Shown here piece after piece: positions 49,054 through 53,993 of a DNA stretch of 64,000 nucleotides. The translations under genes were made by a program, and so were the position numbers. Where the stretch lies: contig NZ_MWQH01000001.1 of assembly GCF_002210295.1 (NCBI RefSeq), positions 124,001 to 188,000 on the forward strand. Direction: 5' to 3'. The notes below the pieces were generated by a model. It was not told the DNA's origin and ran no database searches. It saw nothing but the letters and a program-made list of their open reading frames with translations. Source of the stretch: Fibrobacter sp. UWB5 (lineage in GTDB: Bacteria > Fibrobacterota > Fibrobacteria > Fibrobacterales > Fibrobacteraceae). Position 1 is the first letter of the stretch. Each line of letters begins with the position of its first letter.

Positions 49054-49722
49054 ATGTTCATTCCCGCGTCAACCTTCTTCAATTCGCTTGCATCTGATGA
49101 GCGCGTATTCCTGTTGATTCGTCATGGGGAACGCAGGCATATAACTCCTGAAGATCCTGATTTCGGTGCGCATGTTGGACTTACGGAGCGTGGGCGCGAG
49201 CAGGCCTTGTCGCTTGGCAAGTGCATTCCTGCCGAAGGCGATATGAGTTTCTTTTCGAGTCCGGTAGGGCGTTGCATGGAGACGGCTTCTTGTATCGCGA
49301 AAGGTCGCGGCATTGAAAATCCGCAGGTGCAACCGCTTGATTGCCTGGCGGAATACTTTGTTCAAGATTACGACGAATATACCAAGGTGTTGCGCGCCGG
49401 ATTTTACGAAGGCATTTGCGAATGGCTGAAGAATGAGGCTGAGGGTAACCCGCGTGGCGATAAAGAAGCTTTTGCTCCGCTGCCTGCACGTTCTGAAGAA
49501 ATGCTTTCGATGATGCTTGAAAAGGGTGGCGCCCGCTTCAACATTTTTGCGACGCACGATGCTTGGGTTGTTCCGTGTCTCACGCACTTTTGCAAGATGG
49601 CCTTTACGCCGCAACGCTGGATGAATTACTTGACGGGAATGGCCGTGGTTACCGATGCGCAGAAGAATGTGAAACGGATTGTGCCCGTGACAGGCCTAGA
49701 TACCGGCTGGTTATTGTTTTAA
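49054..49722 (+). CDS. Histidine phosphatase superfamily protein
   Basis: This 222-residue soluble protein has the RHG signature LIRHGERRH (R23, catalytic H24) and a second FATHDAWVVPCLTHF (His-Asp pair). The THDAW acid/base motif is like branch-2 (acid phosphatase type) members. The substrate is unknown. The stop (49720-49722) falls inside the operator of the downstream mccB operon, so this gene must be read through or be expressed separately. Confidence 0.85.
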   Translation: MFIPASTFFNSLASDERVFLLIRHGERRHITPEDPDFGAHVGLTERGREQALSLGKCIPAEGDMSFFSSPVGRCMETASCIAKGRGIENPQVQPLDCLAEYFVQDYDEYTKVLRAGFYEGICEWLKNEAEGNPRGDKEAFAPLPARSEEMLSMMLEKGGARFNIFATHDAWVVPCLTHFCKMAFTPQRWMNYLTGMAVVTDAQKNVKRIVPVTGLDTGWLLF

Positions 49723-49771: not shown

Positions 49772-49800
49772 TTGACAGCGTTATTGTTTTTGTCTATATT
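49772..49800 (+). promoter_or_regulatory. Promoter of the mccB operon leader
   Basis: TTGACA (49772-49777), 17 bases, TATATT (49795-49800). Transcription would start near 49807, about 195 bases before mccB. Confidence 0.75.
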
Positions 49801-49829
49801 ATCCCTATGAAAACAGTAGGAAAATATAA

Positions 49830-49892
49830 ATGACTCAAAAAATGATGGACATGTGTTGTTGCTGTTGGAGTCGATGTCGAACGGGCGACTAG
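49830..49892 (+). CDS. Cys/Met-rich leader peptide of an attenuator
   Basis: This 20-codon gene encodes MTQKMMDM, then four consecutive Cys, then WSRCRTGD. Five of twenty residues are Cys and four are Met, counting the start codon. AGGA lies about 8 bases before the ATG. It sits about 25 bases after the predicted transcription start and about 25 bases before an intrinsic terminator, upstream of the genes for turning methionine sulfur into cysteine. This is the layout of a ribosome-mediated attenuator: shortage of charged tRNA-Cys (or tRNA-Met) would stall the ribosome in the Cys (or Met) codons. Small hairpins (GTCG/CGAC at 49876-49889, TTTTAG/CTAAAA at 49894-49913) lie between it and the terminator. 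Confidence 0.75.
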   Translation: MTQKMMDMCCCCWSRCRTGD

Positions 49893-49918
49893 TTTTTAGG
49901 CTTTTATCTAAAACAGAT

Positions 49919-49953
49919 TCCCGCTCGGTTTTGTCTCCGGAGCGGGATTTTTT
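49919..49953 (+). terminator. Attenuator terminator before mccB
   Basis: TCCCGCTC (49919-49926) pairs with GAGCGGGA (49940-49947), followed by T48-T53. It stands between the leader peptide and mccB, so transcription must get past it for the operon to be made. Confidence 0.85.
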
Positions 49954-50002
49954 ATTCGAATTTAAACATTAAAAGGCGCAAGGCGCTAAAGGACTTCAAA
50001 AA

Positions 50003-51163
50003 ATGTCAAATTCAAAATACATTGAAACGAAACTCATTCACGGCGGTATCGATGGCGATAGCGTAACAGGTGCAGTCAATGTACCTATCTACCAGACTTC
50101 TACCTATAAGCAGGCTGGTCTCGGCGAAAATACCGGTTGGGAATATTCCCGCACGGGTAACCCCACCCGCGCCGCTCTCGAAGCGTTGATTGCCGACCTC
50201 GAAGGCGGTGTGGCAGGTTTTGCTTTTGGTAGCGGCATGGCGGCTACCTCTACGGTGCTTTCGCTGTTTAAGCAGGGCGATCGCATCATTATCTCTAGCA
50301 ACGTTTATGGCGGAACCTTCCGCGTTTTGGACAAAGTATTCAAGAACCTCGGCATTACCTATTCTATTGAAGATACGACCGATTTGGCAACGCTCGATAC
50401 CAAGGTGACGCCCGATGTGAAGGCCTTCTTTATCGAAAGCCCGGCAAACCCGCTCCTGACCGTGACGGACTTGGCTGGCGTCGCAGCCATCGCCAAGAAG
50501 CACGGAATTTTGACCATTGTCGATAACACCTTCATGACTCCTTATTTGCAGCGTCCGCTGGAACTTGGCGCCGACATCGTGGTGCATTCTGCGACCAAGT
50601 ACTTGGGCGGCCATAGCGATGTGGTGGCTGGCCTTGCAGTGACCAACAATAAAGGAATCGCGGAAAAGCTTGCGTTCAATCAGAATGCCGTGGGTGCGGT
50701 GCTCGGCCCCTTCGATTCGTTCCTCCTGATTCGCGGTATCAAGACTCTTGGCGTGCGCCTCGATCGTCATACCGAAAATGCAGAACGCATCGCCCGCTAC
50801 CTGGAACAGCATGAAGCTGTAAAGCACGTTTATTATCCGGGCCTTCCGACCGCTCAGGGTTACGAAATCAACAAGAAGCAGGCCAAGAACGGCGGCGCCA
50901 TGATTTCGTTCGAACTGTACGAAGGTTACGACATCAAGAAATTCTTCAAGGCCCTGCAGCTGATTTCACTGGCTGAAAGTTTGGGCGGCGTCGAAAGCCT
51001 TGTATGCCATCCGGCTACCATGACCCATGCCTCTATTCCGAAGGAAATTCGCGAAAAGGTGGGCATTACCGACGGACTGATTCGTTTGTCTGTAGGTATC
51101 GAAAAAGTCGATGACATTATCTTGGATTTGAACGCCGGCATCAACGCCGCGAAGGAAGCATAA
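50003..51163 (+). CDS. mccB: Cystathionine gamma-lyase/synthase family enzyme (MccB-like)
   Basis: This 386-residue PLP enzyme of the Cys/Met-metabolism family has YSRTGNPTRAALEALIADLEGG (48-69), FGSGMAAT and K199 in HSATKYLGGHSDVVAG. Size and sequence fit cystathionine gamma-lyase (MccB) or gamma-synthase rather than MetY. The next gene, 1 base on, is a cysteine-synthase-like protein; the mccA-mccB pair in Bacillus subtilis converts homocysteine to cysteine by way of cystathionine. That is, reverse transsulfuration; the lyase direction is inferred from the partner. An attenuator with Cys and Met codons lies upstream. Confidence 0.9.
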   Translation: MSNSKYIETKLIHGGIDGDSVTGAVNVPIYQTSTYKQAGLGENTGWEYSRTGNPTRAALEALIADLEGGVAGFAFGSGMAATSTVLSLFKQGDRIIISSNVYGGTFRVLDKVFKNLGITYSIEDTTDLATLDTKVTPDVKAFFIESPANPLLTVTDLAGVAAIAKKHGILTIVDNTFMTPYLQRPLELGADIVVHSATKYLGGHSDVVAGLAVTNNKGIAEKLAFNQNAVGAVLGPFDSFLLIRGIKTLGVRLDRHTENAERIARYLEQHEAVKHVYYPGLPTAQGYEINKKQAKNGGAMISFELYEGYDIKKFFKALQLISLAESLGGVESLVCHPATMTHASIPKEIREKVGITDGLIRLSVGIEKVDDIILDLNAGINAAKEA

Positions 51164-51164
51164 T

Positions 51165-52076
51165 ATGCATTACTATGAATCGATGCAATCTTTAATCGGG
51201 AAGACTCCGCTTGTAAAGCTTACGCACGTGGGACTCCCCGAAGGTGTAAACCTGTTTGCCAAACTGGAGCTCTGGAATCCCTCGGGTAGCGTGAAGGACC
51301 GCACCGGCCTTTACATGGTGAACGACGCGATTGAAAAGGGCCTCCTGAAACCGGGTGGAACCATTGTCGAAGCCACCGCAGGCAACACCGGCCTCGGCAT
51401 CGCCTTCGCAGCCCTCAACCGCGGCATCCGTGTGATATTCGTGGTGCCCACCAAGTTCTCGCAAGAAAAGCAGACGCTCATGCGCGCTCTCGGAGCAGAA
51501 CTCATCAACACCCCGCGTGAAGACGGAATGCTCGGCGCCGAAAAGAAAGCCGAAGAACTCCTGACGCAAATTCCGGGCTCCGTATCGCTCAGGCAGTTCC
51601 GCAACATGTCCAACCCGCTGGCCCATTACGAAACCACCGGCCCCGAAATCTACGAAGATTTGGATGGACAAGTTGACTACGTGGTGGCAGGCGCAGGAAG
51701 TGGCGGCACCTTCAGCGGCATTCTCAAGGCGCTCAAGGAACGCAATCCGAACATCAAGGGCGTGCTCGCAGACCCCGTAGGTTCTACTATGGGCGGCGGC
51801 GAACATGGCGACTACAACATCGAAGGAATTGGTAACGATTTCATTGCCGACACCATGGACATGTCGCTCGTAGATCAGGTCATCAAGATTAACGATGACG
51901 ACGCCTTTGGCGGCGCTCGCGAACTCGCCAAGAAAGAAGGACTCATTGCAGGCTCCTCTTCGGGCGCAGCATTCACCGCAGCCAAAAAGCTCATCGCCTC
52001 GGGTGCCCGCGGAAACATCGTGTTCGTAGCCCCCGACCGCGGCGATCGTTACTTTAGCAAGGGATTGTACGAGTAA
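51165..52076 (+). CDS. mccA: Cysteine synthase-family enzyme (MccA/CysK-like)
   Basis: This 303-residue PLP fold-type II enzyme has K44 in NPSGSVKDRTG (Schiff base), ATAGNTGLGIAFAA, GAGSGGTFSGI (PLP phosphate) and SGSSGAA-type SSSGAAF near the C-terminus. Stand-alone enzymes of this length make cysteine from O-acetylserine and sulfide (CysK) or cystathionine from O-acetylserine and homocysteine (MccA). Position next to mccB, one base after its stop, favours MccA. No heme or CBS domain is present. A strong terminator follows. Confidence 0.9.
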   Translation: MHYYESMQSLIGKTPLVKLTHVGLPEGVNLFAKLELWNPSGSVKDRTGLYMVNDAIEKGLLKPGGTIVEATAGNTGLGIAFAALNRGIRVIFVVPTKFSQEKQTLMRALGAELINTPREDGMLGAEKKAEELLTQIPGSVSLRQFRNMSNPLAHYETTGPEIYEDLDGQVDYVVAGAGSGGTFSGILKALKERNPNIKGVLADPVGSTMGGGEHGDYNIEGIGNDFIADTMDMSLVDQVIKINDDDAFGGARELAKKEGLIAGSSSGAAFTAAKKLIASGARGNIVFVAPDRGDRYFSKGLYE

Positions 52077-52108: not shown

Positions 52109-52136
52109 AACTCCACCAGGTTGGTGGAGTTTTTTT
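52109..52136 (+). terminator. Terminator of the mccB-mccA operon
   Basis: ACTCCACCA (52110-52118), short loop, TGGTGGAGT (52122-52130) and a T run. Confidence 0.9.
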
Positions 52137-52226: not shown

Positions 52227-52306
52227 AAAGCCTACAAAAATGGTAGGGAATAAAACCTAGCATAACAAAACAATCGGTGCGAAGCACCACAAGGAGAGTA
52301 TAAACA

Positions 52307-52861
52307 ATGGCTAGAGTACATTTAAAACAACCGAATGAATTGACTGGCGAAGCAAAGGCTGCTTACGAAAAGTTGGATGCTGCTGGCAAGGTGACCAACA
52401 TGAAGTTGGTGATGCTCCAGGATTACGGTATCTACAAGGCTTTCATGGGCTGGTACGATGCTTGGGAAAGCCTCGAAAAGACGGTAGGTCTGCGTGCTGC
52501 AACGATTTTTGCACACTCGGTTTCTACGACGAACGGCTGCCTTCTCTGCTCGCTGTTCTTCATTAGCGACCTGAAGGCTCTGGGCCTCGATCCGAACAAC
52601 TTCGAAACTTCGGAAAACGAGAAGCTTTTGCAGCAGCTGGGCCAGCAGATCGTGAAGGATCCGACAAAGGTTCCGGACGAACTTTTCGAAGGTCTTCGCA
52701 AATTCTATACCGACGAACAGATTATCATTATCGTTGGTTTTGGCGCTCAGATGCAGGCGACGAACAACTTCAACTCTGTCTTGGGTGTCGACGTTGACAA
52801 GCGTCTGTTGCCCTTGAAGGAATTGTTCAAGCCGGCAACTTGGAGAGAAAATATCAAGTAA
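52307..52861 (+). CDS. Carboxymuconolactone-decarboxylase/AhpD-like protein
   Basis: This 184-residue all-helical protein has the AhpD-type redox pair in SVSTTNGCLLCSLFFISDLKALGL (Cys-x-x-Cys, residues about 78-81). AhpD-like proteins reduce peroxidase partners or act as thiol oxidoreductases; others in the superfamily lack redox activity. Here it is first in a sulfur operon, separated from the transporter genes by a terminator-like hairpin. The ribosome binding site AAGGAGAGTATAAACAATG resembles those of the other genes of the regulon. Function in sulfur metabolism is inferred. Confidence 0.75.
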   Translation: MARVHLKQPNELTGEAKAAYEKLDAAGKVTNMKLVMLQDYGIYKAFMGWYDAWESLEKTVGLRAATIFAHSVSTTNGCLLCSLFFISDLKALGLDPNNFETSENEKLLQQLGQQIVKDPTKVPDELFEGLRKFYTDEQIIIIVGFGAQMQATNNFNSVLGVDVDKRLLPLKELFKPATWRENIK

Positions 52862-52882
52862 TTTGTACTCTCCGTACAACCC

Positions 52883-52930
52883 GGCGCTCCTGGAAATATT
52901 CGAAGTCCATTTTCAGGGGCGCCTTTTTTT
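52883..52930 (+). terminator. Terminator-like hairpin inside the ABC operon
   Basis: GGCGCTCCTG (52883-52892), 21-base loop, CAGGGGCGCC (52914-52923), seven T. It lies between the AhpD-like gene and the binding-protein gene. The ribosome binding site of the latter (AGAGG) comes after it, so it would limit read-through. Confidence 0.75.
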
Positions 52931-52946
52931 GAAAGAGGTATTTGCG

Positions 52947-53993
52947 ATGAAGAACAACTACAAAGTTTATTTGACCGCCCTGCTCGCATTTGGCTTTGCC
53001 CTGTTGGCCGGAGCATGCGGTAACGAAAAAGCGGAAAAACAGGAAGCCCCGCAGGCAGAAAAATCCCAGTTCAAGTTCGGTACTTTGGAACTCCCGATTC
53101 TGGACGGTTCCTTGTGCGGTGCGCCTTTCTACGTGGCTAAGGAAAAGGGATTCTTTGCCGAAGAAGGAATTGATGCCAAGTTGATCGCCGCTGATGGCGA
53201 AACGCGTAAGCTGGGCCTTAGCAAGGGCACTTATGCGCTCACGAATTCTGACTTCCAGTTTTTCCAGGCGATTGAAAACGGCGTAGACATTAAGATTGTC
53301 GATGGTATTCACATCGGTTGCATCAAGGTGCTTGTAAAGAGGGGCTCGCCCTACAAGACTGCTGCTGATTTGAAGGGCAAGAAGATTGCTGTCGATGAAA
53401 TCGGTGGCACGCCGCATCAGGCTGCAAGCCTTTGGCTTTCGCTGGGCGGTGTCTCGACGAAGCCCGAAGATAATCAGGTGCAGTTCTTGCCTTATGCCGA
53501 CGGTAACTTGGCTCTTGAAGCTTTGGAACAGGGCCAGATTGATGCCGCTGCCATTTGGGATCCGCTCGCTTCTGCTTACGAAAAGTCGGGCAAGGCCGAC
53601 GTGATTATGGATGTGGCGAGGGACCCGGTATTTGACGGTCGCTACTGCTGCTTCATTTATGTGTCTGCCAAGATTCTGAAGGAAGAACCGGCAAAGATTG
53701 CAGCACTCCTGCGTGCGATTCACAAGGCGGAAGCCTGGATTGCCGAACACCCCGAAGAAACGGTTGACATTATTGCCGAAGGCAAGTATTCCGAAATCGA
53801 AGACAAGCCGCTGGCTGTTGAACTGATCAAGAGCTATGTGTACACTTCGCTGGAACAGCGCAAGACTCTTGGCCGCGACGTGAAGGGCGACTTGCGTTAC
53901 TTTAGCGAACAGCTCAAGAAGATTGGCTACCTCACGCAGGATCCCGACCAGTTTGTCGCGAACCTGTACGAAGAAGTCGATTTGAACAAGTAA
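52947..53993 (+). CDS. ABC transporter substrate-binding lipoprotein (NitT/TauT type), copy 1
   Basis: The start at 52947 follows AGAGG and gives a lipoprotein signal (lipobox LAGAC, lipidated C24). The 348-residue protein has the NMT1/NitT-TauT pattern: SLCGAPFYVAKEKGFFAEEGI, DGETRKLGLSKG, HIGCIKVLVKRGSPYKTAADL-KGKKIAV. Conserved cysteines in SLCG, IGC and RYCCF recur in the second copy at 62854, so they may bind ligand or form disulfides. Permease and ATPase follow, so this is a complete importer for a sulfonate-type or related compound. The substrate is unknown. Confidence 0.88.
   Translation: MKNNYKVYLTALLAFGFALLAGACGNEKAEKQEAPQAEKSQFKFGTLELPILDGSLCGAPFYVAKEKGFFAEEGIDAKLIAADGETRKLGLSKGTYALTNSDFQFFQAIENGVDIKIVDGIHIGCIKVLVKRGSPYKTAADLKGKKIAVDEIGGTPHQAASLWLSLGGVSTKPEDNQVQFLPYADGNLALEALEQGQIDAAAIWDPLASAYEKSGKADVIMDVARDPVFDGRYCCFIYVSAKILKEEPAKIAALLRAIHKAEAWIAEHPEETVDIIAEGKYSEIEDKPLAVELIKSYVYTSLEQRKTLGRDVKGDLRYFSEQLKKIGYLTQDPDQFVANLYEEVDLNK

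Follow-up and report, generated by a model that had tools for sequence, protein, structure and literature searches.

What controls the mccB-mccA gene pair of Fibrobacter sp. UWB5, which is preceded by a short reading frame rich in Cys codons, is the question raised by this locus. Analysis of the window (the whole stretch of 64,000 nt) indicates that the region ahead of mccB very probably acts as a ribosome-mediated transcription attenuator, with charged tRNA-Cys as its signal and the mccB-mccA (methionine-to-cysteine) operon as its target. The elements that can be read directly from the sequence are the leader ORF, its Cys run, the terminator, an antiterminator that excludes it, the spacing of these parts and their conservation.

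The operon and its surroundings

The genes downstream of the leader are the following.

50003-51163, forward strand: mccB-like gene, Cys/Met metabolism PLP enzyme of the cystathionine gamma-lyase/synthase family (Pfam PF01053)
51165-52076, forward strand: mccA-like gene, cysteine synthase / cystathionine beta-synthase family (PF00291)
52110-52136, forward strand: hairpin and T run (ACTCCACCAGGTTGGTGGAGTTTTTTT), 3' of the second gene

Among solved structures, the mccB-like product is nearest to cystathionine gamma-synthases and lyases. Both products fell below the NCBIfam equivalog cut-offs, so that mccB and mccA are used here as family-level names, and the exact reactions of the two enzymes are those predicted from their families. 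The hairpin and T run beyond the second gene likely mark the end of a two-gene operon. Upstream of the leader lies a phosphatase-like gene (49054-49722). On the 3' side of the operon, positions 52307-53993 code for a peroxidase-related protein and for the binding protein of an SsuA/sulfonate-type ABC transporter, which suggests that the operon has sulfur-related surroundings.

The leader gene and its expression signals

The following elements precede and make up the leader gene.

49772-49800, forward strand: sigma-70-like promoter, TTGACA (49772-49777), 17 nt, TATATT (49795-49800), with 11 of 12 consensus positions
49804-49820, forward strand: CCTA-N9-TAGG inverted repeat at the expected transcription start
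49830-49892, forward strand: leader peptide gene (MTQKMMDMCCCCWSRCRTGD), 20 codons, ATG start, TAG stop (stop codon at 49890)
49854-49865, forward strand: regulatory Cys codons 9-12 of the leader ORF (TGT TGT TGC TGT)

Since the promoter ends at 49800, transcription is predicted to start near 49807, some 23 nt 5' of the leader ATG, and a Shine-Dalgarno-like AGGA (49818-49821) is placed 8 nt before that ATG. Most relatives have a promoter similar to this one. The 20-codon ORF described in an earlier note on this DNA was recovered with all its claimed features, namely four consecutive Cys codons plus one more (49875-49877) and four Met codons including the start. Cys accounts for 1.6% of codons in the long ORFs of the window, and ATG-initiated small ORFs with CCCC were found in none of 20 first-order Markov shuffles of the window. 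Folded in full, the leader has an unremarkable stability (z = -0.44, -0.49), and the evidence must therefore be comparative.

The 3' half of the CCTA-N9-TAGG repeat overlaps the Shine-Dalgarno-like AGGA, and its N9 spacing is exact in 40 of 51 distinct mccB upstream sequences. Exact N9 spacing is also seen in nearly all class II leaders (see below) that have their own promoter, and a second copy is located at 52231-52247, before the peroxidase-related and SsuA-like genes. The repeat could be an operator or a 5' hairpin. Its identification as a genome-wide promoter element was rejected, as it is not enriched across the genome.

Terminator, antiterminator and helper hairpins

Between the Cys run and mccB, the RNA would contain four structural elements.

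49876-49889, forward strand: small hairpin GUCG/CGAC with CGGG in its loop
49877-49885, forward strand: antiterminator 5' strand, UCGA-A-CGGG, within the 3' end of the leader ORF
49892-49914, forward strand: conserved helper hairpin (GUUUUUAG...CUAAAAC)
49919-49953, forward strand: intrinsic terminator, with hairpin 49919-49947 and U tract 49948-49953 (-16.8 kcal/mol)

The terminator is as the earlier note had placed it, and mccB starts 50 nt beyond it. In the alignment of relatives, its stem is paired in 98.8% of cells, with a C-G to U-A change in L009/L026. A simple terminator scan gave no match at 49919-49953, probably because of its 8-nt loop limit. The 5' arm of the terminator (49920-49928, CCCGCUCGG) is also the 3' strand of the antiterminator. 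That CGGG at 49882-49885 might pair with CCCG of this arm had been put forward from the letters alone; folding identified an antiterminator that is longer, pairing 49877-49885 with 49920-49928 through eight pairs and one A-C mismatch, and all 54 distinct leaders can form it.

The strand at the ORF end pairs with the terminator 5' arm in 46 of 46 leaders folded, and in most of these a hairpin (GUUUUUAG...AAAC) stands between the two antiterminator strands. This helper hairpin, paired in 98.6% of cells, is predicted to draw the antiterminator strands together. The GUCG/CGAC hairpin pairs in 87% of cells, without covariation support, and is a possible sequestering hairpin in ribosome-free RNA.

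Among leaders of the mccB type (class I), antiterminator pairing holds in 93.4% of cells, compared with 35-57% when the strands are slid by 1-3 columns. Covariation in the class I antiterminator does not exceed that of shuffles, because both strands are nearly invariant; the argument therefore relies on conserved complementarity, on the geometry of stalled and stop-codon ribosomes, and on the change seen in class II. Against dinucleotide shuffles of the upstream strand, antiterminator stability has a mean z of -2.8 over 28 distinct sequences, and the window's own antiterminator barely beats its shuffles (z -1.3, 25/300).

Ribosome position and the proposed mechanism

Ribosome cover was assumed to extend about 12 nt past the first base of the codon in the A site. 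On this assumption, 49877-49885 stays uncovered when a ribosome stalls with any Cys codon of 49854-49865 in its A site, and is covered once the ribosome stands on the stop codon (49890). The spacing that allows this recurs in the 54 distinct leaders: the first regulatory Cys codon lies 14-29 nt 5' of the antiterminator strand, and the stop codon, variable in position, is always placed such that the ribosome masks most or all of that strand. With a stall at the first Cys codon, folded as the state before the terminator 3' arm is made, 60-100% of the terminator 5' arm is engaged in the antiterminator, whose median energy is -18 kcal/mol (54/54 leaders). The median falls to -2.6 kcal/mol for a ribosome on the stop codon. 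Even in the stalled state, nearly all sequences at equilibrium prefer the full terminator by 1-12 kcal/mol, and antitermination must therefore be kinetic. Such kinetic switching, which we infer, would be consistent with the race model (PMC1183508).

The region thus combines what is expected of an attenuator: a short ORF that has initiation signals and in which codons for the operon's product are clustered; an intrinsic terminator between this ORF and the first structural gene; an antiterminator that, by folding and geometry and with the kinetics assumed, excludes the terminator and is open only upon a stall; and downstream gene families (cystathionine lyase/synthase, cysteine synthase) that make or use cysteine. 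When cysteine is plentiful, the ribosome would traverse the Cys run to the stop codon and mask 49877-49885, so that the terminator could form and transcription would end. When cysteine is short, the ribosome would stall within 49854-49865 and leave 49877-49885 free to pair with 49920-49928, the helper hairpin standing between them; the terminator would not form in time, and RNA polymerase would enter mccB-mccA. Leader translation, ribosome stalling and readthrough are in this scheme predicted steps.

Conservation of the leader across the genus

Of the 80 genomes searched within the genus, 55 contain relatives of the mccB-like protein (P0001), as do named Fibrobacter records. Fifty-two genus loci have a close mccB homologue and upstream sequence, and the alignment that the earlier note had called for came out in its favour: a Cys-rich leader ORF, with its Cys run and terminator, is found upstream of mccB in 51 of them, and the N-terminal part of the peptide varies both in length and in sequence. 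The exception, in the close relative G065 (L015), has no leader in its 198 nt, where the end of another gene is found. The leader peptides, of which MTQKMMDMCCCCWSRCRTGD, MIRVFLNMCCSCRCRAGD, MNFPFNSLNFACCCRCRTGI, MNSPAFSKKFCNVCCVCRC and MTPFFKTICCSVCCSRRC are variants, comprise 14-23 residues with up to six Cys. What is constant is a set of two to four Cys, often adjacent, and the terminator. The Cys cluster is retained in the 54 distinct leaders with variable spacing (CCCC, CCFC, CCSC, CCVC, CC..CC), and the nucleotides CGATGTCGRRCGGGC..CTAGTTTTTAGGCT are kept in most members. The ORF ends sooner in L002 and L007-like leaders, where the downstream nucleotides are nevertheless unchanged, which indicates that the antiterminator strand is conserved as RNA. 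The mixture of Met and Cys codons had been taken to match the operon's product and its sulfur donor. This holds for Cys and fails for Met, since non-start Met codons are not conserved (e.g., MNFPFNSLNFACCCRCRTGI); Met codons as a second sensor were rejected, because no Met except the start is conserved across leaders.

No such leader precedes the mccB homologues found in a different genus within the family (L173-L175), in rumen Treponema and in Ruminococcus. Weak matches of the class I model (21-22 bits) at G069:C5, G002:C47, G020:C38 and G072:C19 were dismissed, as they lack Cys leaders. At L168 (G061:C257), a class I Cys leader is followed by a broken mccB start, a methyltransferase gene and a cysteine-synthase-like gene; there, another sulfur operon seems to have taken over the attenuator.

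A second class of probable attenuator ahead of a methyltransferase gene

A distinct terminator, GCCCGUGUAAGG..CCUGCRCGGGC, was found in L128 and L130, both mccB loci, and in L038. A class II model built from these three sequences matches in 22 of 111 genomes of the family, all of them from this genus, with one weak match. The class II antiterminator is ACGGGCG / CGCCCGU, in which both strands are altered together relative to class I, and it is kept in 17 of 17 distinct class II sequences. The leader peptides of this class include MLPLIVGFCCKNGRC and MSIQFARFCCSSDRC. The genome under study has one such element.

G000:C1:223421-223517: class II attenuator with leader MLPLIVGFCCKNGRC (loci L204, L209)

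It lies about 50 kb from the mccB leader, some 35 kb past the end of the window, and precedes an LCM/TIGR00027-type SAM-dependent methyltransferase gene, assigned to the LCM family on the basis of two homologues. This diverged second class of the same attenuator, ahead of an LCM-family methyltransferase gene, is a new finding.

In some relatives (L210), the class II and mccBA attenuators are arranged in tandem. G042 has a class II leader ahead of the methyltransferase gene, followed by a class I leader, mccB and mccA. In L038, a methyltransferase-mccB operon is headed by a class II leader (1897-2009), and an operon-internal class I leader (2886-2983) has lost its Cys ORF, with most of its RNA core left (45.7 bits). 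This remnant is best read as natural decay, with another Cys leader heading the operon. The leader type therefore tracks sulfur amino acid genes.

It seems reasonably probable that the two homologous, diverged classes, class I for mccB-mccA and class II for the LCM-family SAM-dependent methyltransferase, form a small Fibrobacter cysteine regulon with the role that the cysteine T-box has for clostridial ubiG-mccBA. If so, shared attenuation would mark the methyltransferase as the UbiG/YrrT counterpart in methionine-to-cysteine conversion, and the system would be the first leader-peptide attenuation system described for the phylum.

Other leaders in the genome

The genome's own trp operon offers another case.

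L182, about 300 nt 5' of trpE (G000:C2:271445): trp leader, followed by a terminator-like hairpin of -18 kcal/mol with a T-rich tail

Its leader ORF (MMIYATSATLNRRWWRGL) ends in TLNRRWWRGL, with tandem Trp codons, and this predicted trpL-type attenuator is likewise a new finding. Given this leader and its hairpin, attenuation is probably in general use in this genome. No leader was seen in the 420 nt before each of cysS, the second cysK, hisG and ilvB of the same genome; hisG is directly preceded by another gene, and its 420 nt are not those of an operon head.

Alternative explanations

The position of the ribosome on the uORF might alter access to the mccB start, or the action of Rho, instead of acting through the intrinsic terminator. 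Such effects have been proposed for mycobacterial polycysteine uORFs, which lack intrinsic terminators and affect operon expression, and mccB begins just 50 nt past the terminator. This explanation is nevertheless improbable, given that every class I and class II member examined has a strong hairpin, a U-rich tail and a pairing antiterminator, and that no conserved pairing with the mccB ribosome binding site was seen. It is very improbable that the ORF encodes a functional Cys-rich small protein, involved in metal or redox binding, with a terminator that only sets basal expression. Up to six Cys in 14-23 residues and the conserved position of the ORF would fit such a protein; its N-terminal sequence, its length and its Cys spacing, however, drift freely, the 3' end of the ORF is kept as nucleotides even when untranslated, and the stop codon shifts in ways that keep the ribosome over most or all of the antiterminator strand.

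The hairpin at 49919-49953 might also mark where the transcript of the upstream gene (49054-49722) ends, or be a generic terminator, next to which the Cys run arose by chance. The site is indeed intergenic and downstream of the phosphatase-like gene, but a promoter separates that gene from the leader, the arrangement accompanies mccB in 51 of 52 loci and recurs at other sulfur genes with different upstream genes, and CCCC-containing small ORFs were absent from all 20 shuffles; we regard this explanation as hardly credible.

Comparison with known systems

The mechanism itself is ordinary, textbook ribosome-mediated attenuation. In enterobacterial trp/his-type attenuators, ribosome and polymerase race and mutually exclusive hairpins form (PMC1183508). 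The Fibrobacter leader has in common with them the regulatory codons, the ribosome-polymerase race and the exclusive hairpins, and differs in having two main structures and a helper hairpin and in using cysteine as the amino acid. Unlike in the trp/his type, the antiterminator strand reaches into the 3' end of the leader ORF, so that it would be masked directly by a ribosome that has arrived at the stop codon.

Cys-rich leaders, which the earlier note mentioned for a few phyla, are a kind already described (PMC8632094; PMC1262725; PMC9031893). The uORFC-8-2 motif upstream of cysS in Rhodobacterales comprises an AUG uORF with tandem Cys codons and an intrinsic terminator, and stalling at low Cys-tRNA is presumed to cause readthrough (PMC8632094). 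The Fibrobacter leader shares these elements: an AUG uORF that is conserved, its tandem Cys codons and the intrinsic terminator behind it. It belongs to another phylum, however, and precedes mccB rather than cysS, which encodes a tRNA ligase; the Cys codons of uORFC-8-2 are inside the first stem, whereas the Fibrobacter Cys run precedes the antiterminator strand at the ORF end. With mccB as its gene, and with its own cysS devoid of a Cys leader in the 420 nt upstream, the Fibrobacter system falls outside that motif. Cys uORFs without conserved terminators are known from cys operons in mycobacteria and Propionibacterium and from cbs in Bifidobacterium (PMC1262725), and a cysteine response of the polycysteine uORF of Mycobacterium smegmatis has been reported (Canestrari et al. 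2020, as cited in PMC9031893 and PMC13236596). The mycobacterial uORFs are likewise short, contain consecutive Cys codons, stand ahead of sulfur/cysteine genes and respond to cysteine, but they are leaderless and lack a conserved intrinsic terminator. The Fibrobacter leader, in contrast, is preceded by a promoter and a Shine-Dalgarno-like site and has a terminator whose 5' arm can pair with an antiterminator strand; its start predicted about 23 nt before the ATG and its conserved terminator set it apart from the mycobacterial leaderless class. No description of leader-peptide attenuation in Fibrobacter, or of a Cys-codon leader for mccBA, was found in the open-access literature, which agrees with the earlier note's statement that none was known for Fibrobacter.

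A functional parallel with the same order of genes is the clostridial ubiG-mccB-mccA operon for methionine-to-cysteine conversion, which has a cysteine T-box (PMC2940859). Both systems have methyltransferase, MccB and MccA enzyme kinds, a tRNA-Cys charging signal and premature termination. The clostridial sensor is a tRNA-binding RNA, whereas the Fibrobacter sensor would be a ribosome on a leader peptide, and no T-box was found there. Rfam searches of the window gave no riboswitch and no T-box or S-box (SAM) match, which sets the leader apart from both riboswitch types; on the leader itself nothing exceeded the threshold, the only hit being to anti-hemB, at chance level (18.6 bits; cut-off 49.5). 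T-boxes above threshold were also absent from 20 homologous loci (rumen Treponema, Ruminococcus, others). Operon and signal are thus alike, and the RNA device is different. Amino acid leader-peptide attenuation with a cysteine signal is thereby extended to the Fibrobacterota, major rumen cellulose degraders, and reaches a reverse transsulfuration operon. The Cys leader also speaks for cysteine, and not methionine, as the product of the MccB-like protein, and it links an uncharacterised methyltransferase family with this pathway.
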